The position numbers and the translations under genes were made by a program. Below the pieces are notes generated by a model that made no database searches, was not told where the DNA came from, and worked only from the letters and a program-made list of their open reading frames with translations. DNA of 64,000 nucleotides from Sulfurospirillaceae bacterium (GTDB lineage Bacteria > Campylobacterota > Campylobacteria > Campylobacterales > Sulfurospirillaceae). The stretch lies in the NCBI GenBank assembly GCA_028684065.1, contig JAQUGO010000010.1:1-64000 (forward strand). The letters run 5' to 3'. The first letter of the stretch is position 1, and each line of letters begins with the position of its first letter. This document shows positions 422 through 18,392 of this stretch, piece after piece.

Positions 422-1389
422 GCAAACTTCTTTCTATTGTCTACAAATTTTGTCACACTATAAAGCAATGCAATAGCTAAGATAAAACAGATCAACAATA
501 ATGCTTGAAAATGAAAGGCAATATACCCTAATATCGCTAAAACAACATTGAAAAGCAGTGATGCAACAACAACTTTAGAATGAATCCAACCACTTTGAGT
601 GAGCCTTTGGTATGCATGTTTACGATGTGCTTGAGAGAGCTTTTCGCCATTTTTATAACGACGGTACAGCGTCAATGTAGCATCAAACCAAAAAAGGCCA
701 AAAAGAATCAACCATATCAAAAGAGAAGTTCCATGGTTTTGATGATAGATTGCAAAAATTGCCACAGTATATCCCAAAAGTGTGCTTCCAACATCACCCA
801 TAAATATCTTGGCCTTATGCCAATTCCATACTAAAAATCCCCACACTGACACAATAAGCACTAAAAAATAATCCCCACCGAACAATAGCCACCCCGCACT
901 TCCTAAAAACACTGCTTCACTTCCAGCATAACCATCAATTCCATCGAGGAAATTATAAAGATTGATGAACCATATGATGCCAAAAAATGCCAAGGTATTG
1001 GTAACAATTTGATTTTCTAGGACAAAAAAACCAAAGTCTATCCGAGTTAATCCACCTAAGAGAAAAAGTCCTAAAGCACTAATACTGGCTTGGACAAAAA
1101 GTCGTAACTTTGGGCTTAGCTCATATAAATCATCCATATAACTTACTAAAGAAAGGATGATTCCGAGCATAAGTGCATAAAATAAACGAACATCCAAATC
1201 TTTACATGTAAACAAATAAATCAATCCAAAAAACCAACACACAGCAATAGCGATACCTCCGCCATGAGGTGTGGGAACACTATGCGAGCTGCGTTCATTG
1301 GGAATATCTAAGAGTGATTTTTTTAAAGCAATCGTGCGTATCAAATAGGTCAACCCAAGAGAAAATAAAAAAAGAGTGCCATAGATCAT
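418..1389 (-). CDS. Undecaprenyl-phosphate glycosyl-1-phosphate transferase (WbpL/WecA/MraY family)
   Basis: Polytopic membrane enzyme of 323 residues that would transfer a sugar-1-phosphate from a UDP-sugar onto undecaprenyl phosphate and so start a polysaccharide repeat unit. Family motifs are in order: PHGGG near residue 41, MDD at 85-87, NLYNFLDGIDG at 143-153, MGDVGS at 197-202 and the cytoplasmic HRKHAYQR loop near 255-262. The start codon overlaps the stop of the epimerase gene (ATGA) and the stop overlaps the start of the dehydratase gene, so all three are one transcript. By analogy to WbpL the substrate may be UDP-QuiNAc or UDP-FucNAc; this is inference. A second enzyme of the same family lies at 24467-25483. 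Confidence 0.9.
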   Translation of the reverse strand: MIYGTLFLFSLGLTYLIRTIALKKSLLDIPNERSSHSVPTPHGGGIAIAVCWFFGLIYLFTCKDLDVRLFYALMLGIILSLVSYMDDLYELSPKLRLFVQASISALGLFLLGGLTRIDFGFFVLENQIVTNTLAFFGIIWFINLYNFLDGIDGYAGSEAVFLGSAGWLLFGGDYFLVLIVSVWGFLVWNWHKAKIFMGDVGSTLLGYTVAIFAIYHQNHGTSLLIWLILFGLFWFDATLTLYRRYKNGEKLSQAHRKHAYQRLTQSGWIHSKVVVASLLFNVVLAILGYIAFHFQALLLICFILAIALLYSVTKFVDNRKKFA

Positions 1390-2225
1390 TGCTTATCACC
1401 TTCAATCATCATCCGTATCCCTTCTTCCGCACTGTAAGGATTTTCAAACCCAAGAATTTTTTTGGTTTGAGCATTATCTACTTCTAAACTTTGAAATAAG
1501 CGTTTGTATAATGATGGTTTGAGCCATTTTAACAGTGTTGGAAATAACGGAATAGCGAGCAAATAAATTTTTTTATGCATCGCCGAAGCAATCAGTTTTA
1601 TCAATTCCGTCGTCGAAAGTGCTCTATCGTCACTCGCCAAAAAAATACCACCTTGACTTGTTTGGATAATCATATCGACTAAAGCACAAAGATTGCCCAC
1701 GTAGACAAAGCTTCGTCTATTTGAAATACCTCCAAAAGGTAGTATTGGAATTTTAGCGATAAGATGTGTAAGGTTTTTAATATTGGCTTTTACTCCATAT
1801 CCGTAAACAATGGGCGTTCTTATAATGCTCACTTTAAAGCTTTCATCTTCTAATTTTAGTAACGCATTTTCAGCCTTTAGCTTACTTTTTCCGTACTCAT
1901 CTTGCGGTTTACATGTAAAGCTTTCAGTGTAAACTTCATCACTCTCTTCACCGTATACTTTGACCGTACTCATAAAAACAAAATGCCGAACTCCTGATTC
2001 TTTCGCTTTTCTTGCCAATTGTAACGTCTGAGTAACATTCACATTTTCATACGCTTCAGCACTTGCGCCACCCATCTGATGCACCAAAGCCGAGAGATGA
2101 AACACCACATCGACAGCCTTTACATGTAAAGCTTCAAAGTTATCTTGCAAAAAACTAAATTTTTTTATCTCATAACTATCTTTGTATTGATTTGTAAAAT
2201 AGCTTCCTATGAGTACTCTACCCAT
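1386..2225 (-). CDS. Truncated or altered NAD-dependent sugar epimerase/reductase lacking the glycine-rich loop
   Basis: SDR-family protein of 279 residues from the ATG at 2225; a TTG at 2228 is an alternative. It is a close paralogue of the gene at 3496-4344: both have the LSALVHQ segment, the YGKSK/YGRSK catalytic Tyr-Lys motif and near-identical C-termini. The other copy opens MKILITGASGFVGSYF, whereas this one opens MGRVLIGSYF, so the TGASGFV portion that binds the dinucleotide phosphates is absent. The gene begins directly after the stop of the ATPase gene (2229). Either a seven-codon deletion or a 5-prime rearrangement linked to the ATPase gene would explain it. NAD binding is probably lost, so it may be a decaying duplicate, although the rest of the frame is intact. 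Confidence 0.75.
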   Translation of the reverse strand: MGRVLIGSYFTNQYKDSYEIKKFSFLQDNFEALHVKAVDVVFHLSALVHQMGGASAEAYENVNVTQTLQLARKAKESGVRHFVFMSTVKVYGEESDEVYTESFTCKPQDEYGKSKLKAENALLKLEDESFKVSIIRTPIVYGYGVKANIKNLTHLIAKIPILPFGGISNRRSFVYVGNLCALVDMIIQTSQGGIFLASDDRALSTTELIKLIASAMHKKIYLLAIPLFPTLLKWLKPSLYKRLFQSLEVDNAQTKKILGFENPYSAEEGIRMMIEGDKQ

Positions 2226-2228
2226 CAA

Positions 2229-3350
2229 TCAAGCTTTACTCATTTGTTTTAACCAATACTCAAATAATGGATCTTGAAGATAGTATCCTTCGCTATTTTT
2301 ATCCACTATATCTCTTTCAAGCAAGTTTTTAAGTGCTATTTGTAACGAGCCTGATTTGATTTTATATTTTGCAAGGTATTGCTCGTCGTATACGTTTTGC
2401 CCATTTTTTTCGATTATTATCTTGAGTGTTTTTTTCTGATTTGATGTTAAATTATCATATTCTACTAAAAACAAATCTTCTTCTCTACCCATTATTATTT
2501 TTAAAGCTTTTTCAAATAAAGATACATTGGCCTCGTTTTGAGTAATGTTCCATATCTCATAAGCAAACTGCTGTGTATAGTAAGGGAAACCTTTTGTGAT
2601 CGTTAGTATCTTATCTACAACCGTACCATCTATCTTTTTACCTGTATTTGCATACCTTGATAAGATAAACTCTTTCCATGAATTAGCATTAATTTCTTTG
2701 ATTTTAAAGTGCTTTACTGATTTGTAAAATGGCCTATTTTTATCTAAAAACATTTGATGAAGCAAACTCTTCTTGCTTCCCATGAAAATATAGGCTATTT
2801 TATTGGAATGCAATTGCAACACGCTTCGTAGTTTTGACTCGAGCTTTAGGTTGGTTATTTCTTGAAATTCATCAAATACTATGACTATCTTCTTACCATT
2901 TTTTACAAAAGAGAGTGGGATATTGAGAACTTCTTCAAATGTTTTATCGATATCTTCACCACCCAATACCAAAGAAAAATTTGGATTTCCGTTCTCATCA
3001 AAAGATACATTGATATTCGGTCGTATTTTCAAAATAGATTTAAAAAAATTTATAATTTTGTCCGTTGGCTCTTCTAGCGTTTTTGCTAAAGCATTAAAAT
3101 ACTTATTTATAAACTCTTCAACCGTAGATAGATACATCAGATCAAAAAACACATATTTTACGGAATCAGTTTTTTCCAACTCTTTTAAAGCTTTAAGAAT
3201 CAAAGAGGTCTTACCAAATCTTCTTGGTGCATAAATCAAGGTATTCAATCCTGCTAGCATATCTATCTTGATATCTTTTAGTTCTTCCACTCTATTGCAA
3301 AAGTACTCATCTTCAATAATCCCACCATAATAAAAAGGGTTTGACGGCAT
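2229..3350 (-). CDS. AAA-type ATPase of the archaeal ATPase (ATPase_2) family, lone gene
   Basis: Predicted 373-residue cytoplasmic ATPase. It has a Walker A motif APRRFGKTS at 41-49, a Walker B motif VFDEFQE near 158-164, a sensor-like YIFMGSKKS segment, and a C-terminal region that reads like a winged-helix domain (SGSLQIALKNLLERDIVDK). The N-terminal NPFYYGG and RVEEL elements are typical of this family, which is common in archaea and scattered in bacteria, usually as stand-alone genes of unknown role. It has no relation to sugar metabolism, sits between two paralogous epimerase genes and has its own 145-base upstream gap. That position suggests insertion into a tandem duplication. Role unknown. 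Confidence 0.85.
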   Translation of the reverse strand: MPSNPFYYGGIIEDEYFCNRVEELKDIKIDMLAGLNTLIYAPRRFGKTSLILKALKELEKTDSVKYVFFDLMYLSTVEEFINKYFNALAKTLEEPTDKIINFFKSILKIRPNINVSFDENGNPNFSLVLGGEDIDKTFEEVLNIPLSFVKNGKKIVIVFDEFQEITNLKLESKLRSVLQLHSNKIAYIFMGSKKSLLHQMFLDKNRPFYKSVKHFKIKEINANSWKEFILSRYANTGKKIDGTVVDKILTITKGFPYYTQQFAYEIWNITQNEANVSLFEKALKIIMGREEDLFLVEYDNLTSNQKKTLKIIIEKNGQNVYDEQYLAKYKIKSGSLQIALKNLLERDIVDKNSEGYYLQDPLFEYWLKQMSKA

Positions 3351-3495
3351 CAGGTTCTCTCTTTATTTTTTTTACATAATACTAAAAACATAATGTATAT
3401 TTTATTAAATTCTATGCTTTCTTGTAGTGTGAATCATTATATTTTGCTAAAAATCGTATCAACAACTTATAAATCTATTTTAAATCAATCAGAAC
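3351..3495 (-). promoter_or_regulatory. AT-rich gap, probable promoter region of the ATPase gene
   Basis: This 145-base gap between the intact epimerase gene and the ATPase gene is unusual in a region where neighbours overlap. Read on the minus strand it is very AT-rich with several TATA-like hexamers (for example TATACATTATG and TAGTATTATG), and an AGAGAG stretch lies before the ATPase ATG. No exact promoter can be fixed by eye. The gap supports independent expression of the ATPase gene. Confidence 0.35.
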
Positions 3496-4344
3496 TTATT
3501 TCAAACCATTCACCATTAAAGCTATTCCCTCTTCTGTCGTATAGGGATTTTCAAAATCTAGCACTTTTTTACTCCAAGCGTTATCCACAACCAAGTCACA
3601 AAACAACCGTCTATATAAAGATGGTTTAAACCACTTTAACAAAACTCCAAACATCTTTACATGTAAAAGATACATCTTCTTCTTTTTTGCCTTTGCGATA
3701 AGTTCTATAAGTTTTGAAGTGCTTATGGCTTCATCATCACTAGCTAGAAAGATACCTGATGCTTTTTGAGTTATAACAACATCTACCAAGTGACAAAGAT
3801 TGCCAACATAGACAAAGCTTCTTTGATTATCTATGCCACCAAAAGGTAGTATAGAGACATGCTCCACCAAGCGCATCAAGCTTTTGATGTTACCAGGGGC
3901 ATTGGACCCATATACCATCGGAGGTCTTAGAATTGAAACTGTAAAAAACTCATCTTCTAACTCTTGCAGTTTTTTTTCAGCCTCTAACTTACTCCGACCA
4001 TAGGGTGTACTTGGATTTAAATGTGAATTTTCATCGATATACGTTAAAGAAGTATCATAAACAGCGATCGTACTCATAAAAATAAAATGCTTAACCCCAC
4101 TCTCTTTAGCTTTTCTCGCCAATGCCACTGTATAGTCAATATTGATTTTTATATACTCTTCTTCCAAAGCTTTGGGTTGATGCACCAACGCCGAAAGATG
4201 CAAAACCACATCAACATCTTTTACATGTAAAGCTCTAAAATCATCTTTTAAAAAACTAAACGTTTTTATCTCATACTTATCTTTGTACTTATCTACAAAA
4301 TAAGACCCGACAAACCCACTTGCACCAGTAATTAAAATCTTCAT
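3496..4344 (-). CDS. NAD-dependent sugar epimerase/4-reductase (extended SDR, WbpV-like)
   Basis: Intact 282-residue extended SDR. The Rossmann glycine motif GASGFVG is at 7-13, the LHLSAL NAD-binding strand is near 48-53, STIAVY supplies the active-site Ser and YGRSK at 115-119 the catalytic Tyr and Lys. With the WbpL-like transferase and the WbpM-like dehydratase downstream it probably reduces or epimerises a UDP-4-keto-6-deoxy-HexNAc to give UDP-QuiNAc or UDP-FucNAc; the exact product cannot be read from sequence. The ATG overlaps the stop of the upstream glycosyltransferase (ATGA). Two copies of the recurring TTACATGTAA palindrome lie in this gene (3657 and 4221); the one at 4221 is in the same ALHVK context as a site in the truncated paralogue. 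Confidence 0.85.
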   Translation of the reverse strand: MKILITGASGFVGSYFVDKYKDKYEIKTFSFLKDDFRALHVKDVDVVLHLSALVHQPKALEEEYIKINIDYTVALARKAKESGVKHFIFMSTIAVYDTSLTYIDENSHLNPSTPYGRSKLEAEKKLQELEDEFFTVSILRPPMVYGSNAPGNIKSLMRLVEHVSILPFGGIDNQRSFVYVGNLCHLVDVVITQKASGIFLASDDEAISTSKLIELIAKAKKKKMYLLHVKMFGVLLKWFKPSLYRRLFCDLVVDNAWSKKVLDFENPYTTEEGIALMVNGLK

Positions 4345-5087
4345 TTTCGCATCAACCCTAAAAGCTTACTAGGATATTTTAATAAAATTAACCATATATT
4401 TGTTTTGATGCCATTTTCTCTACACACGCGTAACTGCTCTAAAGTGTTAATGTAAAGACTTTTTAGCGATGTACTCACTCCCCCTACTCTCATTTTTATG
4501 ATAGCCTCTGGTAGATATGCATAGCTAATTTTATACGTATATAAAAACCTCGCCATCAAATCAAAATCTGCCGCTATCTTGTAGTCTGTTTTAAAATAAC
4601 CATACTTTTCATATATCTCTCTTTTAACAAAAAAAGTCGGATGTGCTGGATACATTGCTTTTTTAAAATTTGCAGGGAAACATGTACTACTATCATAATA
4701 ACGCACAGTCTTTTCTAAATCATTCGCTTTTACATAGACAAGATCAGCAAAAATACTATCAACATTATTAGCCTTTAAAACATTTATCACTTTTTCTATC
4801 ACACATTCATCCATATAAAAATCATCGCTATTGAGTATCCCAACAATATCTCCAGAAGCTAATGCCAAGCCTTTGTTCATGGCATCATAAAGCCCATTAT
4901 CTGGCTCACTTACAAACTTTGAGATTTTATCACCATAGCTTTGCACTATCTCCACCGTTCCATCCGTACTTGCACCATCGATGATGATATATTCTATATT
5001 TTTATAAGTCTGTCCAAGAACTGAGTCAATAGCATCTTTTATCGTTTGTGCATTGTTCCACACTACTGTTATGATGGATATTTTCAT
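4341..5087 (-). CDS. Family 2 glycosyltransferase
   Basis: 248-residue GT-A fold transferase. The N-terminus KISIITVVWNN and the IIIDGASTDGT segment at about 34-44 are the nucleotide-binding part of GT2 enzymes, and NSDDF at 86-90 is the metal-binding DXD region. It would add one sugar to the lipid-linked repeat unit on the cytoplasmic face of the inner membrane. The start overlaps the stop of the upstream glycosyltransferase (TAATG) and the stop overlaps the epimerase start. Donor and acceptor sugars cannot be deduced. Confidence 0.9.
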   Translation of the reverse strand: MKISIITVVWNNAQTIKDAIDSVLGQTYKNIEYIIIDGASTDGTVEIVQSYGDKISKFVSEPDNGLYDAMNKGLALASGDIVGILNSDDFYMDECVIEKVINVLKANNVDSIFADLVYVKANDLEKTVRYYDSSTCFPANFKKAMYPAHPTFFVKREIYEKYGYFKTDYKIAADFDLMARFLYTYKISYAYLPEAIIKMRVGGVSTSLKSLYINTLEQLRVCRENGIKTNIWLILLKYPSKLLGLMRK

Positions 5088-6157
5088 TACTTTTTCATTA
5101 CTATTCTATTTAAATTATCTATATACTGTTCTAAACTATATTTTTCTTTGGCTACTTGATGATTATATATTTGAATTTGTTTCAATTTTTCTTTGTCAAT
5201 TATCAAGTTTTTAATACCATCTACTAAACTATCAACTGATTTGGTTTCTACTATCATACCATTTTCACTAAAGACAACGGCAGGAAGATATTTATAGTTT
5301 GTAGTCACTATAGCATTTTTACAAGCCATTGCTTCTATAATAGATATTGGAAAAGCTTCTGATTTATAATAACTAGGTAATACAAATATATCTGATTTTT
5401 GTAGTACTCTAGCTTTTCTTTCTCCAAATATTTTTCCTACATATTTTATTCTATCATGATGATATATTTTATTTTGAAACTTTTCTTTCACTTCATCTAT
5501 GCTCATGTACTCATCAGCTATGTATTCACCCGCTATATTCAAGTAAATATTGTCATATTCTTTACTTAGTATTTCAAAAGCATCTATAAGTTCAAATATT
5601 CCTTTACTACTCATAATATTTGAAAAGTAAACTAGATTTATCTTATCATCATCTTTTTCTTCTAACTTTTCATTCAACTCTTTGTCATAAAAATTTGGAA
5701 CAATTTCTACATTCATCTCAGGAAAATCTACAAATTGTTCTTTCATACTATCAAGAAGCACAATTGAAATATCTACTTTAGTATAACTTTTAATAAGTAT
5801 CTTTTGGTACCATTTTGGACTTGTATCTAAAAATTCTTTAAAATCTGAACCATGAAGATGATTTACTATATTTACATCTTTTAAACTTACAAGATTTATA
5901 AGTAAAATATCTTTGATACTACCTAGAATACTTCTACTACATGTAAAATACACTATATCATACTTGCTAAATATTACTTTCATACTTATAGATAAAAGTG
6001 TTTTAAAAGTAGCAAATATTTTCCCTATCTTTGATTTATTTTCTAAATTTGTATTTATTAGTATTCTTTTATCTTCATTTATACTTTCTACAAATCGTGT
6101 AAAAGCAAGAGACTGTCCATGAATAGGAGGAAAAATTGGACCTATTAATAATATCAA
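5087..6157 (-). CDS. Family 4 (GT-B) glycosyltransferase
   Basis: 356 residues with two Rossmann-like halves. The N-terminus MILLIGPIFPPIHGQS is the acceptor domain loop typical of this group, and the C-terminal half contains the donor-binding region with SEAFPISIIEAMACKNAIV, matching the E-X7-E type motif of GT4 enzymes. It probably adds a sugar to the repeat unit. It sits between the acetyltransferase gene (2-base gap) and the GT2 gene (1-base stop/start overlap), so it is part of the same transcript. Substrate unknown. Confidence 0.88.
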   Translation of the reverse strand: MILLIGPIFPPIHGQSLAFTRFVESINEDKRILINTNLENKSKIGKIFATFKTLLSISMKVIFSKYDIVYFTCSRSILGSIKDILLINLVSLKDVNIVNHLHGSDFKEFLDTSPKWYQKILIKSYTKVDISIVLLDSMKEQFVDFPEMNVEIVPNFYDKELNEKLEEKDDDKINLVYFSNIMSSKGIFELIDAFEILSKEYDNIYLNIAGEYIADEYMSIDEVKEKFQNKIYHHDRIKYVGKIFGERKARVLQKSDIFVLPSYYKSEAFPISIIEAMACKNAIVTTNYKYLPAVVFSENGMIVETKSVDSLVDGIKNLIIDKEKLKQIQIYNHQVAKEKYSLEQYIDNLNRIVMKK

Positions 6158-6159
6158 TT

Positions 6160-6663
6160 TTATATCCTTTTTTTTATAAAAACAGCAGGATTTCCAGCCA
6201 CTATACTATTTTTCTGAATATTTTTAACTACTACAGCTCCAGCCCCAATTACAACATTATCCTCTATTGAAATATTTCCTAAAATAACACAATTCGAGCC
6301 AATTTCCACATTATTTCCAATTGTAGGAGATTCTAAAGAATTTTCTGATTTGTTACCAACAGTAGTACAATGCCTTAATACAACATTATCCCCAATTATC
6401 GTATTTTTGTTAATAATTAGTGATTGACCATGGTGAATTATTATGTTTTCCCCTATTTTTGTCTTAAATGAAATTTCACAATTCAATAAAAATTCAGTAT
6501 ATATTTTATACAAAATAATAATTGGTGTACATAAAATATAAAAGCACATTCTATTCATTTTTGAATATAAATAAAAAAGTATTCTATACATAAACAGCAT
6601 AAAAAAAATTTTAAACACATTATTTTTAAAATCCGATAACACTAAAGAAATTATATTTTTCAT
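6160..6663 (-). CDS. Hexapeptide-repeat O-acetyltransferase (serine acetyltransferase-like)
   Basis: 167 residues. From about residue 66 on, imperfect hexapeptide repeats (IGENIIIHHG, IGDNVVLRH, IGNNVEIGSNCVI, IEDNVVIGAGAVV) predict a left-handed beta-helix, ending in the SIVAGNPAVFIKKR closing segment seen in CysE/WcaB/NodL-type acetyltransferases. Histidines in HHG and RHCTTVG fit the catalytic positions of the family. The N-terminal third is hydrophobic. In this context it most likely acetylates a sugar of the polysaccharide. Neighbours abut with gaps of 1-2 bases. Confidence 0.85.
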   Translation of the reverse strand: MKNIISLVLSDFKNNVFKIFFMLFMYRILFYLYSKMNRMCFYILCTPIIILYKIYTEFLLNCEISFKTKIGENIIIHHGQSLIINKNTIIGDNVVLRHCTTVGNKSENSLESPTIGNNVEIGSNCVILGNISIEDNVVIGAGAVVVKNIQKNSIVAGNPAVFIKKRI

Positions 6664-6664
6664 A

Positions 6665-6979
6665 CTATTTTATTCTTACTTTATTTTGTATTTTTAAAAA
6701 AGGAAATACTAAAAAAGACATTACTATTGTAACAAACATAGTTCTGTTTACAAAATAATCTCCAAAAAGCATTAAAAAGAAAAGCATTAAAAAGAATACA
6801 TAAATTCCAACAAAATTAATCTTTTTAGCCAGTAAAATCAATGCACTATAAATGGAAAAAACTAAGATCATTTCCAACCAATAAAAATACCCAAAATCTA
6901 AAAAATAGGGTTGGATAAATGTTGTTGCATTAAAGCCCTCACCTACATAGAGATTGGAAGTATTGATTAATAGTTTCAT
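6665..6979 (-). pseudogene. C-terminal remnant of a second Wzy-like polymerase
   Basis: This 104-residue membrane protein aligns by eye with the last quarter of the full-length polymerase immediately upstream. Its FNATTFIQPYFLDFGYF region matches FNARTYLYPFYHDLHFA, and the same order of hydrophobic segments follows. It lacks the N-terminal three quarters. It starts with ATG overlapping the polymerase stop (ATGA), so it is still translated in principle. It is best read as the leftover of a duplicated or exchanged wzy gene. It also contains an exact 15-base tandem duplication (6766-6795) that repeats five residues, a further sign of relaxed selection. An alternative is a small accessory membrane protein. 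Confidence 0.6.
6766..6795. repeat. 15-base tandem duplication
   Basis: The unit AAAGCATTAAAAAGA occurs twice back to back at 6766-6780 and 6781-6795 inside the wzy remnant. It is in frame and duplicates the residues FLMLF. It is a simple slippage-type duplication. Confidence 0.9.
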
Positions 6980-8220
6980 TGTGACTCTACCTTAGATCTA
7001 AAATTTTTATTCCTTCCAACTCTTAACTTTTTATTGAAAAATATTATTATAAAAACAACCAAAAAAGGAAAAAATATAACAAGTTCACCAAAAAAATAGT
7101 TTCCAAACGCTGTAAAAAATATTGATTTTTGAAGTGCCATTACTAATAATAAATATAATATATTTTTATTTGAAAATTTTACAATCAAGGACAAAAACAA
7201 ACCCAATAAAAATGGATACAGTAAAATACCAGCAAAATGTAAATCATGATAAAAAGGGTACAAATAGGTTCTTGCATTAAAAAATAACGTATCATAATTA
7301 CATAAATTGAAAGAATTTAATTCATATTCATTATAAAAAAAAGGTTTTAACAAAAACTTCCAAGAATACCATACACCAGACATAGGGATATCTGCCCTGA
7401 TTAATTGGTGTAAGTTTTCGTAGTTAAATGCAATGTAAGAATAAACTGAACTGAAAACCATAGAAAGAATATCATCTCCAAATAATAAAAAAACACTACT
7501 ACCTTGTCCTAATCTTATAAATGAAAAGGATACTATAGCAATAAGAAGGATACTTAAAAATAAAAATATTTTTTTCCAAGTAAAATATTTTTTTCTATTA
7601 TAAAAATAAATAATAGCTAAGATTGAAATAAGCAGCCCTCCTCTTGATACACTAAATAACAATGAATATATAATAGTTGAAAAAATAAAAAAACTTATAA
7701 GTATATTCCTTCTAATATATCCTAAAGTACTATTCATATGAAGTTCAAAAAAAGCCATTATTCCAAGATATGGAATCATTAATTCGAAATAATTAATGAA
7801 TGGGATAGCTAGAGGAACAAGACTTTTTTTATCTGATGCATCTGAAAAAAATACCATTTCAAATCCAGTGCTTTTAAAACGAATAATAAAAGCAATAATT
7901 GACATGATCATTAAAAAATTAAATATTGACTTATACATTTTTGAATAATATATTTTGTTTTTTAGATTATCAGCTGCTTTTTCCGCTAATAAAATAGAAG
8001 GTATATAAAATGCAACACCACTTAAATATATAACTAACATCATTTCAGTATTCCAAATTCTTTGAAGAGAATGATTATAAAGAAAGTCCATTGATGATAA
8101 TGCAGACGGTAAATACCATAGTAATAAAAAAATTGCCTGAGGATTCAATTTATCTTTTGTAATTTTATATAATGAAATATACATGAAAAAACCAGTGATA
8201 AGCAAAATAAAACTAAACAT
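6976..8220 (-). CDS. wzy: Oligosaccharide repeat-unit polymerase, Wzy type
   Basis: 414 residues, almost entirely hydrophobic, with about ten to twelve predicted membrane segments and a large loop between the later ones (SGVWYSWKFLLKPFFYNEYE region). The pattern, SVSRGGLL in mid-protein and the TYLYPFYHDLHFAG segment resemble the O-antigen polymerase group that joins lipid-linked repeats in the periplasm. It is next to the flippase gene, the usual position of wzy. Wzy proteins are poorly conserved, so the call rests on topology, motif resemblance and context. Confidence 0.75.
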   Translation of the reverse strand: MFSFILLITGFFMYISLYKITKDKLNPQAIFLLLWYLPSALSSMDFLYNHSLQRIWNTEMMLVIYLSGVAFYIPSILLAEKAADNLKNKIYYSKMYKSIFNFLMIMSIIAFIIRFKSTGFEMVFFSDASDKKSLVPLAIPFINYFELMIPYLGIMAFFELHMNSTLGYIRRNILISFFIFSTIIYSLLFSVSRGGLLISILAIIYFYNRKKYFTWKKIFLFLSILLIAIVSFSFIRLGQGSSVFLLFGDDILSMVFSSVYSYIAFNYENLHQLIRADIPMSGVWYSWKFLLKPFFYNEYELNSFNLCNYDTLFFNARTYLYPFYHDLHFAGILLYPFLLGLFLSLIVKFSNKNILYLLLVMALQKSIFFTAFGNYFFGELVIFFPFLVVFIIIFFNKKLRVGRNKNFRSKVESQ

Positions 8221-8224
8221 AATT

Positions 8225-9418
8225 CTATCTTCTAATCAAAAGCATATGGTGCTTTTTTAAAAAAATCATATATAAGGCAATCAATATTATTCCGTACACA
8301 ATCCTACCCCATACAAAATATCTCAAAATATTTTCAGAATTCGAATCGAGTAAAAAAGACAAATACACAATATAGACCATTAAAACAATCAAATTAATCT
8401 TAAGTATAGTTTTTCTTTGATCTAGTGCGTTAAATGTATAATACATTATTGATGTAAAAGAATATGGTAAAACTGCCCATGAGATTAAATGTAAGTATGG
8501 AAGCAAATATGCATAATTTGTAAATTTGATGATAAAAAAATTCATAAATAGGTTTGCGACAATTACAGCCAATAAAGTTGGGAAAAATATGAACGACATC
8601 TCTTTCCAATGTATAAGCTTGGATGTTTGTGTAACTTTTTTGATAATTTTTGGAAAAACTAATTCTGCTAATGTCCCGGGAATCACCATCAATGTAGCAA
8701 AAATAAATAATATAATAGAGTATTCTCCTAAAACTTCACTACCTCGATATCTTTCCAATAAAATTTTATCAATAGAAAATGATAAAAATATGACAATAGA
8801 TGTAGCAAACAATAACCCTGTAGCCCTATAAAAAGACTTTGCTTTACTAATAAACACTAAATAAGGCATTACTCTAATCAACTTAAAATAATATATCAAT
8901 AATATAAATCCAATAGTATAAGAAACTATAAAAGATATTAAATATATTTTAAAATTAAAAAATAAAATAGCTGTAATCTGCACCGCTAATGGAAAAAACA
9001 TGTTCATAAGAACTACTTGTATCATCTCTTTAGTTTTTTCTTTTGCTCTAAAAAATGCTTTATAAATTGTACCTTGTGCAAATATAAAACCAGAAATCAT
9101 AAAAATTAAAATTATAAAATTATTATTTACAAAGAAAAATACAATAATCATAAAAACTAACGAAGCCACAAAACTTATGATCATTGTAAAAAGTGTAATT
9201 TCTCTTCCCTCTTTATCATTAGAGGCTGGCACATATCTATCCATCGTAAAACGACTACCTAAATGCATAAAATCCATAAACTGAAAATATACTTTTGCTA
9301 TAGTAAGCTGCCCCAAATCTCCAAGTGACAAATTTCTTATCAACAGAATATTTAAAATAATACTTAATATTTGCATCAAATAAACGATAAACAAGTAAAT
9401 TATACTTTTTTTAAACAT
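8225..9418 (-). CDS. wzx: Polysaccharide flippase, Wzx type (MOP superfamily)
   Basis: 397 residues with about twelve membrane segments. The N-terminal region with SLGDLGQLTIAKVYFQF and the long even spacing of helices are typical of polysaccharide transporters of the MOP exporter superfamily. It would flip undecaprenyl-linked repeat units across the inner membrane for the polymerase encoded next to it. Base composition is very AT-rich, like the whole 5-9.4 kb segment. A second, unrelated-looking flippase lies at 30854-32113 and presumably serves a different glycan. Confidence 0.85.
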   Translation of the reverse strand: MFKKSIIYLFIVYLMQILSIILNILLIRNLSLGDLGQLTIAKVYFQFMDFMHLGSRFTMDRYVPASNDKEGREITLFTMIISFVASLVFMIIVFFFVNNNFIILIFMISGFIFAQGTIYKAFFRAKEKTKEMIQVVLMNMFFPLAVQITAILFFNFKIYLISFIVSYTIGFILLIYYFKLIRVMPYLVFISKAKSFYRATGLLFATSIVIFLSFSIDKILLERYRGSEVLGEYSIILFIFATLMVIPGTLAELVFPKIIKKVTQTSKLIHWKEMSFIFFPTLLAVIVANLFMNFFIIKFTNYAYLLPYLHLISWAVLPYSFTSIMYYTFNALDQRKTILKINLIVLMVYIVYLSFLLDSNSENILRYFVWGRIVYGIILIALYMIFLKKHHMLLIRR

Positions 9419-9426
9419 ATAACAAT

Positions 9427-11043
9427 CTATTTTGCAAGTGCATATACATGGTTATAAAAAGAATCTTTCATTTCTTTTCCAGCTTTTAGATTTTCACAGA
9501 GTTCTTTATATTGTAATTTATACAAAGTATCATAGTCATCACCAGGGAGAATTTCTTGTCTTGGTAGGACATCGGAGTGCCAGTAATTTTGAAAAGATAA
9601 GTACAAAATAATTATTGCTTTTTTCTTCACCTCTTCACTCAATGTCTCAATTTTTAAAATATTCTTTAAAGTATCTTCATATTCTTTTCTTGTTTTGGGT
9701 TCATGTGCAATCCCGAACCCACTGTAATAACCTTGTGCCGCTGTAATAGCCGGAATGCCGAAACAACTAAATTCTAGTCCTGCAGTTCCACGAGCCGTCA
9801 AAAGATAGTCAGCAATGTCTTTTATACTGTTGGTGTTAAAATCGTTTGGTAATATGTGGATATTATCAATAGACAACTGAGAAAGAATATCCTCTACTGC
9901 TCCACTTTCGTTCCACATATAAGAGCTAGGATGTGGTTTAACAAATACATTAATTCCTTTGACGGTTGACATAATCTTAATTACTTCAACTAACCAATGA
10001 TAATAGTCATTGAAAAGTAATCCTCCACCAACATGTGGTCCATCTGAAAAAGCATGGGCTAAAATAAATACATTTTTATTTTCTCTATTAAGGTCAAAAT
10101 ACTTCAACAAATCATCTTTTGAATAGATTTTTTTATCCCTATAGGCATTTTTTACATCAACTTGATCCACCGTACCATCTAATCTACTTTTCAAATAATC
10201 CAAGGCCTTATTATACAAAGATTTGTCCGATAAACCCTCTTCAAATTGCCGAATACTAGTCTTTAAAAAATGTTCATCTATATGAATTTTTTGATCATAT
10301 AACTTAAAAACTTTCATATCTTTTAGATAAACATTAACCCCATACTGATTTGCAAGTCTGCACAAAATACCAAATTCTGCATAAACATTATGACTCGTTA
10401 CAACAGCTTTAATATCATATTTCTCAAATATTTTTTTATACAATTCTATGCTGTACAATGCTCTAAAAATAAGCCTAAAATGTTTTTTGTATGAAATATC
10501 AGCTACAGTATAACTTTTAGGATTAAACCTAATTAATGTGTCATATAATAAATCACCAATTACAATTCCATGTTTCTCCATGCTTAGTAATTCTTCACCA
10601 GTTCTATATTTTTTAAAAATAAAAAATGTTGATAAAAGAATCTTAGAAACTAAAATAATATTGATATATTTTAACCACCAAAAAATAAAATTATTTATCG
10701 AAAATGATTTGTAAATTTCATAAACGTTACTTGAGCGTTTACTAAAACCCCTTAATAAAACCAATGATTGCAAATTCAATTTTTCTTCAATTGCCTTCGC
10801 TATTCTTGCTTTTTCAATAACACTAATTGGAGAATATAGAAAACCTTCAATTAGGACCCCGATCGGACCACTCGTCTGTGACCAGATTTCTTTATTTAAT
10901 TTGATAAACTCTTTTTCTGGATCAGATAGCACAAAACTTTTACAACAAGCATTATATATTTTTTTCAATAGACTAAACATCATAAATTTCTTTATCAATA
11001 TTAATAGAATTTTTTCTATGCAAAATATAAGAAAAAGTACCAT
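9427..11043 (-). CDS. Probable GT-B glycosyltransferase of the capsule-synthesis type
   Basis: 538 residues, not assigned to a firm family. The C-terminal half has a run of features seen in capsule-type GT-B transferases (KpsC/KpsS and polysialyltransferase-like): VFVKPHPSSYMW, then IADYLLTARGTAGLEFSCFGIPAI, where the HPSS and the Gly-Ser/Thr-Glu region would hold a nucleotide donor. It lies next to the CMP-legionaminate genes, so it may be the transferase for legionaminic acid, which is inference. The first 20 residues are very hydrophobic and lack a clear ribosome-binding site; tandem ATGs at 10983 and 10980 (MMFSLLKK) are plausible alternative starts. Confidence 0.6.
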   Translation of the reverse strand: MVLFLIFCIEKILLILIKKFMMFSLLKKIYNACCKSFVLSDPEKEFIKLNKEIWSQTSGPIGVLIEGFLYSPISVIEKARIAKAIEEKLNLQSLVLLRGFSKRSSNVYEIYKSFSINNFIFWWLKYINIILVSKILLSTFFIFKKYRTGEELLSMEKHGIVIGDLLYDTLIRFNPKSYTVADISYKKHFRLIFRALYSIELYKKIFEKYDIKAVVTSHNVYAEFGILCRLANQYGVNVYLKDMKVFKLYDQKIHIDEHFLKTSIRQFEEGLSDKSLYNKALDYLKSRLDGTVDQVDVKNAYRDKKIYSKDDLLKYFDLNRENKNVFILAHAFSDGPHVGGGLLFNDYYHWLVEVIKIMSTVKGINVFVKPHPSSYMWNESGAVEDILSQLSIDNIHILPNDFNTNSIKDIADYLLTARGTAGLEFSCFGIPAITAAQGYYSGFGIAHEPKTRKEYEDTLKNILKIETLSEEVKKKAIIILYLSFQNYWHSDVLPRQEILPGDDYDTLYKLQYKELCENLKAGKEMKDSFYNHVYALAK

Positions 11044-11088
11044 CTTTTACAAAAAAAGTCTTAACTTTCATATTACTAACTACTCTTA

Positions 11089-11877
11089 TCATAAACTAAA
11101 TCCATCATCTACTACGATATTTTGCCCATTTACGTATTTACTGCCATCACTTAAAAGATATACTAATGCACCTGTTAAATCCGAACTATCTAACATACCT
11201 TTTGTTCCACATCTTTTTTTATATTGTTCCAAAAATATTTCTGATTGATTGTCTAAAATTCCACCTGGACTTATTGCATTAACTCTAATTCCATCTTTTC
11301 TAAACATTTTAGCCATATATTTTGTCATACCCAAAAGTCCATGTTTAACAACTGTATATTCTACAGGAGAATGCATAGATGTTCCTTCATATGTCTCAAA
11401 AGCTGGTGCACCAATTCCTTGAATAGAAGATATATTTATTATATTTCCATATTTTTGTTCTAAAAAATATTTTATACAGTGTTGAGAAATGTTAAAATAA
11501 CCACCTAAATGGAGATTTAAAAATTCATTAAAATCTTCCATTTCTATTTCAAAAAATTTCTTACCATAATTTAAACTTTTTGGATAAGCATTATTTACTA
11601 AAGCATCGATTCTTCCAAACTTTTTATGCAAAGCTTCTATTAAATTTTCTATCGATATTTTTGATGAAATATCTAAATTAAAAAATAAAATCTTTGATGA
11701 AATATTTTCCATTCTTTCTTTTAATTCATCAGTTATTCTTTCTATAGTTTGATTTGCAAACTCTTCATTAATATCTGCTATTATTGTAATACCATTATTT
11801 TCAACAACTGATTTTGCAAACTCACTACCTATTCTTCCAGCTCCACCTGTTATTACTACAACTTTATCTTTAAGCAT
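11089..11877 (-). CDS. ptmA: Short-chain dehydrogenase/reductase, PtmA-like
   Basis: 262-residue classical SDR. VVITGGAGRIG at about 7-17 is the cofactor loop, NNAYP the NNAG-like motif, NISSIQG holds the catalytic Ser, and the Tyr-X3-Lys is YTVVKHG. In Campylobacter jejuni the ptmA gene sits next to ptmB in the legionaminic acid region and its exact step is not settled; the same pairing occurs here, with the start overlapping the CMP-legionaminate synthetase gene by 8 bases. It probably works on a sugar in or derived from that pathway. Confidence 0.75.
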   Translation of the reverse strand: MLKDKVVVITGGAGRIGSEFAKSVVENNGITIIADINEEFANQTIERITDELKERMENISSKILFFNLDISSKISIENLIEALHKKFGRIDALVNNAYPKSLNYGKKFFEIEMEDFNEFLNLHLGGYFNISQHCIKYFLEQKYGNIINISSIQGIGAPAFETYEGTSMHSPVEYTVVKHGLLGMTKYMAKMFRKDGIRVNAISPGGILDNQSEIFLEQYKKRCGTKGMLDSSDLTGALVYLLSDGSKYVNGQNIVVDDGFSL

Positions 11878-12571
11878 TTTTATTCCTCATCAAAAATTCT
11901 ACAAATTTAAAATCAAGTTCGTTATCAATATCTATTGATCTCTCTTCTGGCATCACATAAAGTCCTGTTTTTTCTAAAAATAGTGAATTTTTATTTAAAA
12001 TAACATCTCTTTTCCATATATATATAGAAGCATTCATATCATAGCTTTTAGGAGCATCTTGTCTTCTTACAATTGCACTGTCAAATTTTTTTGATAAATA
12101 AACTTTGCCATCTTTATCTTGCTCCACAAGATTAAAATAGGGACTTCTTCTGCTTGGCATTGCTGTGATTAGATTGTCATTTTCATTTTCTTTAAACTGA
12201 TTAAAAGAGTTTATTATATCTTCTATACTCCTTAAAGGTGCTGTTGCATCTAAATCTATCAAATAATCAAAAGTTTTATTATAATACTCTTCACTTCTTT
12301 TAAAAGCATCTTTTATCACATCTAGCTTTCCTGCTGTATCACTTGCCATTTCAGGACTTCTTTTAAAAAATACTTCTGCACCATATTGTTTTGCTACATT
12401 TGCTATTTCATCACTATCTGTACTTATAACGATATGCTCAAAAAGACCTGAAGTTTTTGCTTGTTCTATAGTGTATGTAATAAGCGGTTTGCCATTTAGT
12501 TCTTTGATGTTTTTATTTTTAACACCTTTTGAGCCACCTCTTGCACAAATAGTGCATAAAATATTACTCAT
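11870..12571 (-). CDS. legF: CMP-N,N'-diacetyllegionaminic acid synthase (LegF/PtmB)
   Basis: 233 residues, the usual length for acylneuraminate cytidylyltransferases. The N-terminus CTICARGGSKGVKNKNIKEL is the CTP-binding motif of the NeuA family, followed by KPLITYTIEQA and the DLDATAPLR motif. It activates the nonulosonic acid made by LegI with CMP before transfer. All genes needed for legionaminic acid (legB, legC, legH, legG, legI, ptmE) lie just upstream in the same transcript, which supports legionaminate rather than sialate or pseudaminate as substrate. Confidence 0.9.
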   Translation of the reverse strand: MSNILCTICARGGSKGVKNKNIKELNGKPLITYTIEQAKTSGLFEHIVISTDSDEIANVAKQYGAEVFFKRSPEMASDTAGKLDVIKDAFKRSEEYYNKTFDYLIDLDATAPLRSIEDIINSFNQFKENENDNLITAMPSRRSPYFNLVEQDKDGKVYLSKKFDSAIVRRQDAPKSYDMNASIYIWKRDVILNKNSLFLEKTGLYVMPEERSIDIDNELDFKFVEFLMRNKNA

Positions 12572-13476
12572 CTATTTTGCTCCTGTATAGTTGATATAGT
12601 ATTCATTACTTCTAAAGCTTCTTTAAAAGTACAAATATTTGTTGATTTGTTCAAAACATCTAAATGCATTTTTCCAAACATATGGTTTCGCTCCAAATTT
12701 TCAAAATCATACAGTTCTTCAAAGCATGATTTATTTTTCTTAACTAATTTATTTACTATAAAATCCAACTCATATGTATGCTCTAAAGTTTCAACCAATA
12801 GTTTTCTATGGGTAATTTTACTTATATAATCTATTGATATGTTTACTATAATATTCTTACTTGTTTTTCCTATCAACATAGTTAAATCATCGGAATTTAT
12901 ATCTAAATCTGAAATTTTACATTGTATGCTATTTAAGGTTTGAATTTTACCGCAAAGCCATTGAACATAATCAATCTCGTGACTCAAATCTAGTAGTACA
13001 CCACCACCATCTTCTTTTTTTGCACTATAACAGTTCTTATAGTCACTGTTTGGTCTCCAAGATGGTAAATATTGCCCACATTTAGCATTTACTAAAATTA
13101 TTTTTTCATCTTTTGTCATCTCTTTTAATTTTTCAAGTAGGGGATGAAATCTAAGAACATAACCAACAAAAACTTTATTATTTTTAATATCTAACTCTTT
13201 TTTTGTTTCAAAAATTGGTTTTTCACAAAAGATTAGTTTATTTTTTACATTTTCTTCTAAAAATCTTAATTGTTCGAAATGTTTATTTGTTTCAGATGCT
13301 ATTACAAAATAATCATATTGATTTATATTTTCTACAACATTTAAATTTTCATAGCAAATTTTATTTTCAATATTTTGTTTAGTTACTAAATCTATACTTT
13401 GAACTTTAGACAATTTAGATAAAACTTCATAATGTCTTTTTCCAATAGAGCCAAAACCTATAAGTAAAACTTTCAC
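12568..13476 (-). CDS. ptmF: Gfo/Idh/MocA-family oxidoreductase, PtmF-like
   Basis: 302 residues. The N-terminal Rossmann motif LLIGFGSIGKRH is clear, EKPIFE near 104 is the conserved EKP motif of the family, and GGGVLLDLSHEIDY is the substrate-domain signature with the conserved His. In C. jejuni a gene of this family (ptmF) lies among the legionaminic acid genes; its precise reaction is uncertain. The ATG overlaps by 4 bases with legF downstream and abuts ptmE upstream, so it belongs to the same unit. Confidence 0.75.
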   Translation of the reverse strand: MKVLLIGFGSIGKRHYEVLSKLSKVQSIDLVTKQNIENKICYENLNVVENINQYDYFVIASETNKHFEQLRFLEENVKNKLIFCEKPIFETKKELDIKNNKVFVGYVLRFHPLLEKLKEMTKDEKIILVNAKCGQYLPSWRPNSDYKNCYSAKKEDGGGVLLDLSHEIDYVQWLCGKIQTLNSIQCKISDLDINSDDLTMLIGKTSKNIIVNISIDYISKITHRKLLVETLEHTYELDFIVNKLVKKNKSCFEELYDFENLERNHMFGKMHLDVLNKSTNICTFKEALEVMNTISTIQEQNR

Positions 13477-14523
13477 TTAAAATACCTCATCATATTCTTC
13501 ATTTGCTTTTTTATATTCTTCTATTCGTCCAATATCTAGCCAATATTCTCTCAGAGGAAAAGATATAGCATTTTTATTTTCATTTATCATTTTCTCAAAA
13601 AGTGTAGGCATATCATAAAATTGATTTTGTGGTATATACTCTAAAACCTCTGGACTTAGCATATATATTCCAGCACTTACAAAAAACTTTTGAGTAGGTT
13701 TTTCTTCAATAGAAAGTATTTTGCTATCATTTATATTTACAACACCATAAGGAACCTGAAAATCATACTCTCTTACACACATGGTTCCCATAGAGTTATT
13801 TGATAGATGAAAATCATGAAGATGTTCAAAGTTTACATTTGTAAGCAAATCTCCATTCATCACAAAAAAAGATTCAGTTGGTTTCTCTTTCAAAAGACTC
13901 AATGCCCCTGCAGTTCCCATTCTTTGGCCTTCAAACACATACTCGATATTTACACCGAATTCACTTCCGTCTCCAAAATAATCTTGAATAATATGCGATT
14001 TATAATTCACACACATAGTTATATTTATATATCCATACTCTGCAAATTTTTCTACAATAGTTTGAAGTATTGGTTTATTTCCTACTTTTAACATAGGTTT
14101 AGGAGTCTTATCAGTAAGTGGTCTAAGCCTAGTACCAAGCCCACCTACCATAAGGACTACTTGATTAGTTTTATATTTTGGTTTTATAAGCTCTTCAAGT
14201 TCTTGAATACCTAAAATTTTTCCGCTATCATCTATAATAGGTATTTGATGGAGCTTTTTAACTAATGCGATTTTTAAAATCTCTTCTTTTGTATCACTTA
14301 TTTTCGCAATAGTAGGAGTTGTAAACATAATACTCTCAATGGAGCTATCTAAGTCTAACCCTCTTAAAAGTCCTCTTCTGATATCTCCATCCGTCAATGT
14401 TCCCAATAGCTTATCATTTTCATCCACGACTAAAGCAATTTGTATCGCTCCATTATCTATTATTTGTAAGGCTTCTTTTATTAGTGAGTTTTTATTGAGT
14501 TTTATATTTTGAATATTTTTCAT
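13477..14523 (-). CDS. ptmE: CBS-domain nucleotidyltransferase, glucosamine-1-P guanylyltransferase (PtmE-like)
   Basis: 348 residues. Residues about 1-115 form a pair of CBS domains (DGDIRRGLLRG is typical), and residues about 122-345 a sugar-phosphate nucleotidyltransferase with VGGLGTRLRPLTDKTPKPML. This fusion is the architecture of C. jejuni PtmE, which makes GDP-glucosamine and so commits the pathway to GDP-linked intermediates. The presence of the fusion here argues that the legionaminic acid pathway of this organism is GDP-based as in Campylobacter. Confidence 0.88.
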   Translation of the reverse strand: MKNIQNIKLNKNSLIKEALQIIDNGAIQIALVVDENDKLLGTLTDGDIRRGLLRGLDLDSSIESIMFTTPTIAKISDTKEEILKIALVKKLHQIPIIDDSGKILGIQELEELIKPKYKTNQVVLMVGGLGTRLRPLTDKTPKPMLKVGNKPILQTIVEKFAEYGYINITMCVNYKSHIIQDYFGDGSEFGVNIEYVFEGQRMGTAGALSLLKEKPTESFFVMNGDLLTNVNFEHLHDFHLSNNSMGTMCVREYDFQVPYGVVNINDSKILSIEEKPTQKFFVSAGIYMLSPEVLEYIPQNQFYDMPTLFEKMINENKNAISFPLREYWLDIGRIEEYKKANEEYDEVF

Positions 14524-14524
14524 A

Positions 14525-15688
14525 TCAAACCTTTAAATCATAAAATGATTTCTTTAAAATATCAGTTAAATCAACTTTTTTAATCTCTTCAATTATTTTT
14601 TGGCTAGCACATCCATCACCATAAGGATTCTGAATATTTGATAAAATATTTTGAAATTCAAGAGAATACAACTCTTTAAAAGCTTCTTTTATATTCTCTT
14701 TATTTGGAAGAGAACCAATCACACTTTTAGCTTTTATTCTTCCCTTTTGTCTATCACCTATATTAATTGTCCCTATCTTAAAACTAGGAGCTTCGGCAAG
14801 TCCGCTTGAACTATTGCCCACCATAGCATCTACAAATTGCAAAGCACTTAAATATCGTAGTTGTCCCAAAGAGGTAAATCCAACCGATTTATGAGTATTT
14901 TTTGCAACATATTCATCTATTATCTGATTTATCATTCTTCCATCTGTATCACTATTTGCTTTGGTAAATATGATGTTTGTCTCTTCAAGTTCATCGATAG
15001 CATCAAGTAGTTCTTGAAATTGCTCTTTTGCAGTTGAATTTTCAAGTGTAACGGGATGAAAAGTCACTAAAATATTTTTTTTATTTAATTTAAAATCTAT
15101 TGATGCCTCAAACTTTTCTCTTGTGAGCAGTGTTAATCTTTTTATATTTTCTATACCCATTCCACCGACATTAAAAACTCTCTGCGGTTGTTCTCCAAGT
15201 TGTATAACTCTATTTTTATACTCATCGGTTGCTGTAAAATGAAGATGACTCATTTTGGTGATACTATGTCTTATAGATTCATCAAAAGCACCTTCTGTTG
15301 TTTCTCCTCCATGAAGATGAGCAACGGGAATACGAGCTATCATCGCACTACTTACAGCAGAAAAAATCTCATATCTATCTCCCAAAACCACTAAAATATC
15401 AGGTTTTAAATCTTCATAGGCTTCGGCAAAACTTATTTGAGCTAATCCCATCGATTTTGAAACACCTACTGAGGTATCTGAAGATAAAAGCATCTCTATT
15501 TTTTTATCTATTTTAAAATCTTTTTCTATCTCTTTATACGTTAATCCAAATTCAGGACTTAAGTGCATCCCAGTAGCTATGATTTGAAGTTCAAGTTCAT
15601 TATCTGCCTCTATCTCTTTCATTAGCCAATAAAGTAAACCATATTCAGCTCTAGTTCCTGTTACTATACAAACTTTTCGTATATTCAT
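14525..15688 (-). CDS. legG: GDP-N,N'-diacetylbacillosamine 2-epimerase, hydrolysing (LegG/NeuC-like)
   Basis: 387 residues. The family start VCIVTGTRAEYGLLYWLMKEI is followed by GDRYEIFSA and HLHGGETTEGAFDESIRHSITKM, all hallmarks of hydrolysing UDP-GlcNAc 2-epimerases of the NeuC/LegG branch, and by GNSSSGLAEAP near the C-terminus. It would release 2,4-diacetamido-2,4,6-trideoxymannose for condensation by LegI, whose gene overlaps immediately upstream (ATGA). Confidence 0.9.
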   Translation of the reverse strand: MNIRKVCIVTGTRAEYGLLYWLMKEIEADNELELQIIATGMHLSPEFGLTYKEIEKDFKIDKKIEMLLSSDTSVGVSKSMGLAQISFAEAYEDLKPDILVVLGDRYEIFSAVSSAMIARIPVAHLHGGETTEGAFDESIRHSITKMSHLHFTATDEYKNRVIQLGEQPQRVFNVGGMGIENIKRLTLLTREKFEASIDFKLNKKNILVTFHPVTLENSTAKEQFQELLDAIDELEETNIIFTKANSDTDGRMINQIIDEYVAKNTHKSVGFTSLGQLRYLSALQFVDAMVGNSSSGLAEAPSFKIGTINIGDRQKGRIKAKSVIGSLPNKENIKEAFKELYSLEFQNILSNIQNPYGDGCASQKIIEEIKKVDLTDILKKSFYDLKV

Positions 15689-16683
15689 ATCAGATCATCT
15701 TCTTTATAATCTTTAGTTGCTACACTGCCTAGTATCTCGTCCCATCTCATTGGACTTATTCCATCTCCTGGTCGCTTAACTGTCATATTTTTTTCACTTA
15801 AAATATCGCCTTTTTGAATGTGGCAACTAGCAACTATTGATTTTCTAGCGATTCGCATATTTGGCAGTTCACTTTTTGAAGCTTTTTTTACACTATTGCC
15901 TAAAGCTATTTCAATATTTCGGATAGCCTTGACCATTGCTTGAAGTTCTTGCGGTTCTAAAGAAGCCTTATGATCTGGTCCATCCATAGTTTTATCCAAA
16001 GTAAAATGCTTCTCAATGACACTCGCGCCCATAGCTACGGCTGCAATATCCACTTCTATACCCAAAGTATGGTCGCTATATCCATAAGCTATATCAAAAC
16101 TGTTTCCTATGGTTAGCATCGCTTTTAAATTAACATCTTCCATAGGTGTTGGATACATTGTATTTGCATGTAAAAGAGTAATATCTTCTTTTAATGTTCC
16201 AGCTTCTATTAAAATATTAAGAGCATCTTCTATCTCACCTAAATCTGCCATACCTGTTGAGAGAATCACTTTTTTACCCAGTTTCCCAATGTGTCGTAAA
16301 TATGGAAGATTTGTGATCTCACCGCTAGGTATTTTAAATATCTCCAAACCTAAATCACCTAAAAGCTCAATACTATCATGGTCAAAAGGAGTAGATAAAA
16401 ATAAAATATTTTGTGTTTTACAATAAGCCATAAGCTCTTTATGCGTATCTAAATCAAGCTCAAGTTTTTTTATCATATCAAATTGTGATTCTGAATTATT
16501 AGTAGTTTGCTTTTGATAATCCGCTTTTTGAGCATTCTTAGATACCAACTTTTCAGCTTTAAATGTTTGAAACTTTACAGCGTCAGCACCTGCTTGACTT
16601 GCAACGTCTATAAGTCTTTTAGCTAACTCTATATCTCCATTATGATTGACACCAGCTTCTGCGATGATAAATACTTTACTCAT
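15685..16683 (-). CDS. legI: N,N'-diacetyllegionaminic acid synthase (LegI/NeuB family)
   Basis: 332 residues. The N-terminal TIM-barrel shows IIAEAGVNHNGD, DAVKFQTFKAEKLVS and TPFDHDSIELL, with STGMADLGEIE and GYSDHTLGIEV in the second half, all NeuB-family motifs. The C-terminal 60 residues (RKSIVASCHIQKGDILSE) are the antifreeze-like SAF domain. It condenses the trideoxymannose product of LegG with phosphoenolpyruvate. It overlaps both neighbours by 4 bases. Confidence 0.92.
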   Translation of the reverse strand: MSKVFIIAEAGVNHNGDIELAKRLIDVASQAGADAVKFQTFKAEKLVSKNAQKADYQKQTTNNSESQFDMIKKLELDLDTHKELMAYCKTQNILFLSTPFDHDSIELLGDLGLEIFKIPSGEITNLPYLRHIGKLGKKVILSTGMADLGEIEDALNILIEAGTLKEDITLLHANTMYPTPMEDVNLKAMLTIGNSFDIAYGYSDHTLGIEVDIAAVAMGASVIEKHFTLDKTMDGPDHKASLEPQELQAMVKAIRNIEIALGNSVKKASKSELPNMRIARKSIVASCHIQKGDILSEKNMTVKRPGDGISPMRWDEILGSVATKDYKEDDLI

Positions 16684-18391: not shown

Positions 18392-18392
18392 A

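Follow-up and report, generated by a model that had tools for sequence, protein, structure and literature searches.

How does a glycan locus come to hold two related sugar-nucleotide epimerase genes, one of them lacking the loop that should bind its cofactor, and what is the state of the damaged gene? These questions arise from a Sulfurospirillaceae genome of 2.67 Mb. Here we describe a window that spans the first 64 kb of a contig of 82 kb, at the start of which both genes are located.

Gene order at the locus

Transcription on the minus strand proceeds from a gene for a family 2 glycosyltransferase (GT2, positions 4341-5087) through gene A (3496-4344), an ATPase_2 gene (PF01637; 2229-3350), gene B (1386-2225) and a WecA/WbpL-like initiating sugar-phosphate transferase gene (PF00953; 418-1389) to the start of a gene truncated at the contig end (1-421). 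The latter encodes the N-terminal part of a protein that we take to be WbpM-like, and homologues were found in all six synteny loci. Both A and B encode extended-SDR proteins of the "epimerase" type. A overlaps the GT2 gene by four bases, and the overlap between B and the transferase gene is the ATGA at 1386-1389.

Two start codons may be considered for B, ATG at 2225 and TTG at 2228, the latter extending the gene to 1386-2228. The stop codon of the ATPase gene directly precedes this TTG ATG and shares its frame. Only the TGA (2229-2231) and then the TTG separate the ATPase reading frame from the ATG of B, and read-through would give a fusion protein.

In addition, a 12-base palindrome, TTTACATGTAAA, is present in the window at 1201, 1908, 2119, 3656, 4220, 19652, 26700 and 36897. 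Five of these eight copies fall within 3 kb over wbpL, B and A, where 0.14 would be expected at the density of the same genome (a post hoc comparison). This palindrome is highly iterated, with 14-792 copies per genome in the 19 genomes of the genus that were searched (124 in the genome studied here), compared with 0-3 copies for a reversed-pattern control and 0-1 copies in the 12 genomes searched from the order's other genera. Among the matches listed in a literature search for this string, none was about the genus by its title; for palindromes in Sulfurospirillum, the passage retrieved from the matches listed concerned CRISPR only. Elsewhere in the window, two ORFs that we take to be MBOAT-like membrane acyltransferases (47223-48662 and 52069-53511) start about 4.8 kb apart and are near-identical by eye over most of their length.

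Loss of the cofactor loop from gene B

The dinucleotide-binding loop of these proteins has the motif TGxxGxxG. It is present in A (TGASGFVG, residue 6) and absent from B, whose N-terminus reads (L)MGRVLIGSYF where that of A reads MKILITGASGFVGSYF. B is six residues shorter here than A and seven shorter than homologue L005. We used an alignment of 59 rows, comprising A, B and 57 distinct full-length homologues that were left after repeats and fragments (shorter than 240 residues or not spanning the ends) had been dropped. B alone was gapped in the loop columns (1 of 59), which the remaining 58 rows all filled, so that chance variation does not explain the gap. The loop residues of these 58 rows were well conserved: the first Gly in 58/58, Thr or Ser in 58/58 and the second Gly in 57/58. 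A first-pass annotation of this DNA, in which B was described as a copy without the loop seen in its paralogue, was correct in both the coordinates and the gap. Its identification of the missing residues as the pyrophosphate-binding loop is supported by the alignment and by a predicted AlphaFold2 structure. Relatives with the same short start, which it had named as a case that would speak against its reading, were found in none of the 58 rows.

At the 5' end of B (2202-2225, minus strand), the junction lies between 2207 and 2208, 18 bases inside the gene counted from the ATG. As both the ATG and the strand-like RVLI remain, the cut is internal to B. The lost segment had been placed at the border with the ATPase gene; it was indeed near this border, but not at it. 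No loop sequence was present around the start of B in any of the three minus-strand frames. A displacement of the loop to the far side of the ATPase gene was also considered and rejected, as the 145-base gap between A and the ATPase gene had no remnant of it when read in three minus-strand frames.

Conservation and predicted fold of gene B

Both proteins scored above the Pfam gathering cut-off of PF01370 (20.9 bits), A with 101.2 bits and B with 78.6 bits, the match of B starting no earlier than profile position 58. Neither protein reached the cut-off of any NCBIfam model. The catalytic motif of SDR enzymes is S/T ... YxxxK, and it is found in A (ST 91, Y115GRSK) as well as in B (ST 87, Y112GKSK), where STVKVY and YGKSK are retained. 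The frame of B is open over 280 codons. Of the columns with at least 90% conservation among the other rows, 85 in number, none is changed in B. The median over all 59 rows is 3 changes, and three other homologues, L019, L119 and L064, have nine each. Within type 1 rows alone (see below), B differs at 1 of 112 such columns (median 3, 49 rows). If nine random replacements had accumulated since the loss, they would have spared all 85 columns with a probability of 3.6%. A long-standing pseudogene was therefore rejected, there being no stop codon, no frameshift and no change in the conserved columns. This state fits either a very recent loss or a constraint that still acts on B; the intact catalytic residues favor recent loss. 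Full conservation of the remaining part is also what is expected of a constrained protein.

AlphaFold2 was run on A and on B, each time with an identical set of 39 sequences, namely these two proteins plus 37 of the 57 homologues, and both models were of high confidence (mean pLDDT 91.5 for A and 90.6 for B). Strands 1 (residues 2-6) and 2 (25-29) of the A model have no counterpart in the B model, and the first ten residues of the latter have a mean pLDDT of 68. Given the absence of the loop and the loss of these strands in the model, it is very unlikely that B binds NAD(P), and the prediction is that B has most likely lost its function as an NAD(P) enzyme. Foldseek matched the fold to many UDP-sugar epimerases and reductases at about 20% identity, which did not decide the substrate. 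The first-pass annotation had left two fates for B, a dead copy or a non-catalytic subunit of the intact one. The predicted structure agrees with the first; for the second, conservation is the only positive evidence, and the retained catalytic residues point to recent loss instead.

Origins of genes A and B

It had been proposed that A and B arose by tandem duplication. The two proteins are homologous, with 59% identity over 274 residues, but to call them close paralogues is generous. The seven full-length homologues from the family's other genera (L006-L009, L011, L012 and L016) share 64-70% identity with B. In the tree, A groups with genes of congeners G013 and G020 (L018/L019; support 100/99), and this clade next joins the L005/G017 gene (96/96), all of them from A's own genus, while B is placed outside the set of A and congeners (the bootstrap had not quite settled). 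The nearest kin of A are single-copy genes of congeners. Forcing A and B together costs 48 log units; AU tests against such a clade were marginal, both at full length (p 0.044) and for the middle segment (p 0.0525). In the tree of the middle segment, A falls within nine type 2 rows (99 by SH-aLRT), and B is among the rest. Because the gene recombines, any single tree is approximate.

The two types can be recognized by signatures. Most rows, judged by eye, have either the type 1 signature of B (KVYGEE / RTPIVYGYGVKAN) or the type 2 signature AVY / RPPM(V/I)YGxxAPGN, which in A reads AVY / RPPMVYGxNAPGN; L016 and L109 are intermediates. Copy number was assessed with A as query in 398 genomes of the order (E 1e-60, at most six candidates scored per genome). 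Matches were found in 50 genomes, 48 of which had one copy. Two copies occurred only in the genome studied here and in G211, which has 7% contamination.

Gene neighborhoods provided further information. A transferase match was found in 49 of the 57 loci of relatives (the other eight had none in the stretch fetched), and among these 49 the epimerase and transferase genes overlapped by four bases in 30, lay within 60 bases in 37 and were further apart in 12. An epimerase of B's type directly abuts the transferase gene in G004. In G020, an overlapping GT2-epimerase pair stands at the end of the cluster, directly abutting the transferase gene, and its GT2 is 75% identical to that of the window. 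The order of B and wbpL is thus the usual pair, and GT2 with A resembles the end of a congener's cluster.

We also computed GC3 for 38 chosen genes. Below 5087, the five genes that start with the transferase and end with GT2 had values of 29-31%, and above 20046 the range was 26-36% for the 19 genes computed. In the minus-strand glycan cassette between them (5087-19583), where GC3 is mostly low, 13 of the 14 computed genes had 11-24% and the remaining one 30%. The step at 5087 therefore indicates that the edge of a compositionally different cassette adjoins GT2 and A.

A further observation came from G017, whose homologue (L124 11775-12632) is a single epimerase gene with an A-b-A mosaic of both types present in the window. 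Its nucleotide identity to A is 82-91% in the first three 90-base windows and 83-96% in the last four, whereas the middle (windows 135-450) is 70-87% identical to B versus 46-66% to A. This pattern fits 214 of the 268 sites at which A and B differ and the G017 gene agrees with one or the other, with breaks near alignment bases 144-150 and 498-513. As the maximum in 2000 shuffles was 172, the mosaic exceeds all of them, and recombination within the epimerase gene is real and active in the genus.

Separate origins of A and B are supported by the tree, the signatures, the GT2-A pair as found in G020, the B-wbpL order, the GC3 step and copy number. With the AU tests only marginal, it was the tree taken together with the subtype signatures, the synteny and the number of copies that led us to reject tandem duplication as the simplest history. 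The two types could still stem from an old duplication at the root of the genus and subsequent losses.

The ATPase gene

The ATPase matched PF01637 with 49.7 bits (cut-off 33.2). An 87% homologue occupies an equivalent place in G018 (L075), likewise just upstream of a wbpL-like transferase gene, and DNA similarity between the two loci begins 59 bases ahead of the start codon and ends one codon short of the stop. The two transferases share 75.5% identity, compared with 87% for the ATPase, and the latter therefore looks horizontally moved. Its relatives are sporadic, being present in 12 of 60 genomes. It was also considered as a known defense gene and rejected, the match being weak and partial (mad8, E 3.8e-5, 21 bits).

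The first-pass annotation had further suggested that the ATPase gene split a pre-existing duplication. This is not supported by G018, in which the ATPase gene precedes the wbpL-like gene and the 17 kb locus has no homologue of A or B at E 1e-8; nor did a search of this genome, which is 77% complete, with A at E 1e-60 find anything. By eye, that locus does have an SDR gene, of a different kind. In G018 (L075 1495-2976), the ATPase gene is followed, in the place of B, by a 78-codon ORF with no Pfam match. This ORF has a weak PADLOC match to SIR2 (17 bits) and is antitoxin-like by eye, and AGGGTCAG is found on both sides of the ATPase gene in G018.

In the window, the ATPase gene is flanked by an 8-base direct repeat, ATCAATCA, at 2224-2231 and 3484-3491. 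A target-site duplication was considered and rejected, because a common 8-mer turns up in 3.9% of draws when two 40-base pieces of the window are picked at random, and because G018, with different flanks, does not have the repeat.

Proposed history and alternatives

We consider it likely that B is a WbpV-like reductase gene that was very recently inactivated and is redundant next to A, at the border of an exchanged cassette. B would have been the resident sugar-nucleotide reductase/epimerase of the glycan locus, in its usual place directly before the initiating transferase gene. Judging from this context, it probably was WbpV-like and may have served synthesis of a 6-deoxy-HexNAc such as UDP-QuiNAc. 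Recombination within the genus would then have exchanged the neighboring cassette, and A, of the other subtype, would have entered with its glycosyltransferase. Once redundant, B could have lost its cofactor loop when a few codons were deleted in frame, probably between short ATA/ATA-like repeats, after which it is predicted to be unable to bind NAD(P). The frame may still be open since the loss is very recent, and possibly also through translational coupling to the overlapping wbpL-like gene, which may disfavor frameshifts in B. Any activity still needed would be supplied by A, although A and B may differ in substrate, so that A need not replace B.

Alternatively, the arrival of the ATPase gene may itself have caused the loss, through a ragged insertion that removed or rewrote the first codons of B. 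The junction and the stop codon of the ATPase gene are no more than about 25 bases apart, the first ten bases of B (ATGGGTAGAG) recur inside the ATPase gene (minus strand, 2483-2492), the repeat described above stands on either side of it, and homology of the ATPase unit with G018 ceases right at this end. However, RVLI, which matches the (K/R)-hydrophobic x3 of relatives, is kept before the gap, the A-ATPase gap holds no piece of the loop, and for the repeat there is the 3.9% chance level given above, along with the different flanks in G018. We regard this origin of the deletion as unlikely.

An artefact, whether a mistake in sequencing or assembly or a deletion present only in the culture that was sequenced, would explain why the short B occurs in this genome only among those examined and why the rest of the gene looks fully constrained. 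It has a low probability: an in-frame gap of 6-7 codons is unusual for, and unlikely to be, a sequencing error, and the assembly is of good quality, with 99.94% completeness and 0.41% contamination in 16 contigs. Similarly improbable is that B, though dead as an enzyme, is kept as a silent donor, whose intact type 1 substrate domain can be copied by recombination into the intact type 2 gene A, switching sugar specificity. Such conversion would yield a gene like that of G017, with ends like A and a middle like B.

Finally, a maintained pseudoenzyme, that is, a non-catalytic subunit or regulator pairing with A via SDR dimer helices, is very doubtful: the open frame and unchanged conserved columns would suit it, and Foldseek places the B model among SDR structures, with matches listed that include the MAT alpha2-beta complex (entry 4ktt), whose beta subunit is presumably a non-catalytic SDR-fold protein, but a settled pseudoenzyme would not need the intact Ser/Thr and YxxxK, no relative has the short start, beta strand 1 at the centre of the fold is missing from the model, an A-B dimer is not assured at 59% identity between different subtypes, and a literature search on this reading found no paper.

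Most likely, then, the locus is an ordinary leftover of surface-sugar gene swapping. With recent inactivation of B as the preferred history, it provides a freeze-frame of change at a surface-sugar locus, with two enzyme subtypes next to each other at the border of a cassette, one of them newly broken, and with a mosaic of both in a congener. It also serves as a caution that an open and well-conserved reading frame can still encode a dead enzyme. If the donor reading were true, glycan switching by conversion from a relic would become testable in an environmental genus.

Comparison with known systems

In Pseudomonas, wbpM follows wbpL, and in the window a WbpM-like gene is found after the transferase gene. 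In the wbpV-wbpL pair of P. aeruginosa O6, the description of WbpV assigns it to UDP-QuiNAc synthesis (PMC4773840), and in Acinetobacter KL4, qnr is described as paired with itrB (PMC3628348). The window resembles both in that a reductase/epimerase gene is near a gene for a WbpL-type initiating transferase, and B is probably WbpV-like by this analogy. Unlike wbpV and qnr, B has no cofactor loop; the likeness is one of gene context alone, with a putative substrate and product.

Gene remnants in glycan loci have also been described. Initiating transferase genes itrB2 of Acinetobacter KL8 and KL9 are referred to as "remnant" (PMC3628348). Like B, itrB2 belongs to a glycan locus and is considered redundant there following an earlier exchange of genes for sugar synthesis. 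Unlike B, it encodes a different enzyme, and the account of itrB2 mentions no loss of a catalytic part.

The closest published parallel that we found, by analogy, is the galE1/galE2 pair of Neisseria meningitidis, in which an intact galE1 and a truncated galE2 are reported at the edges of the cps island (PMC5349592). According to that report, galE2 lost its first 402 nucleotides, for which illegitimate recombination is the authors' model, and is located in an inverted repeat region. In both systems, a horizontally exchanged polysaccharide island is bordered by two sugar epimerase genes, one intact and one damaged at its N-terminus, the two copies are mostly of different functional classes, and recombination between or near them appears to have occurred. 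In contrast to galE2, B lost just 6-7 codons, is arranged head-to-tail with A and is otherwise pristine. In addition, A and B belong to another enzyme subfamily than galE and to another phylum.
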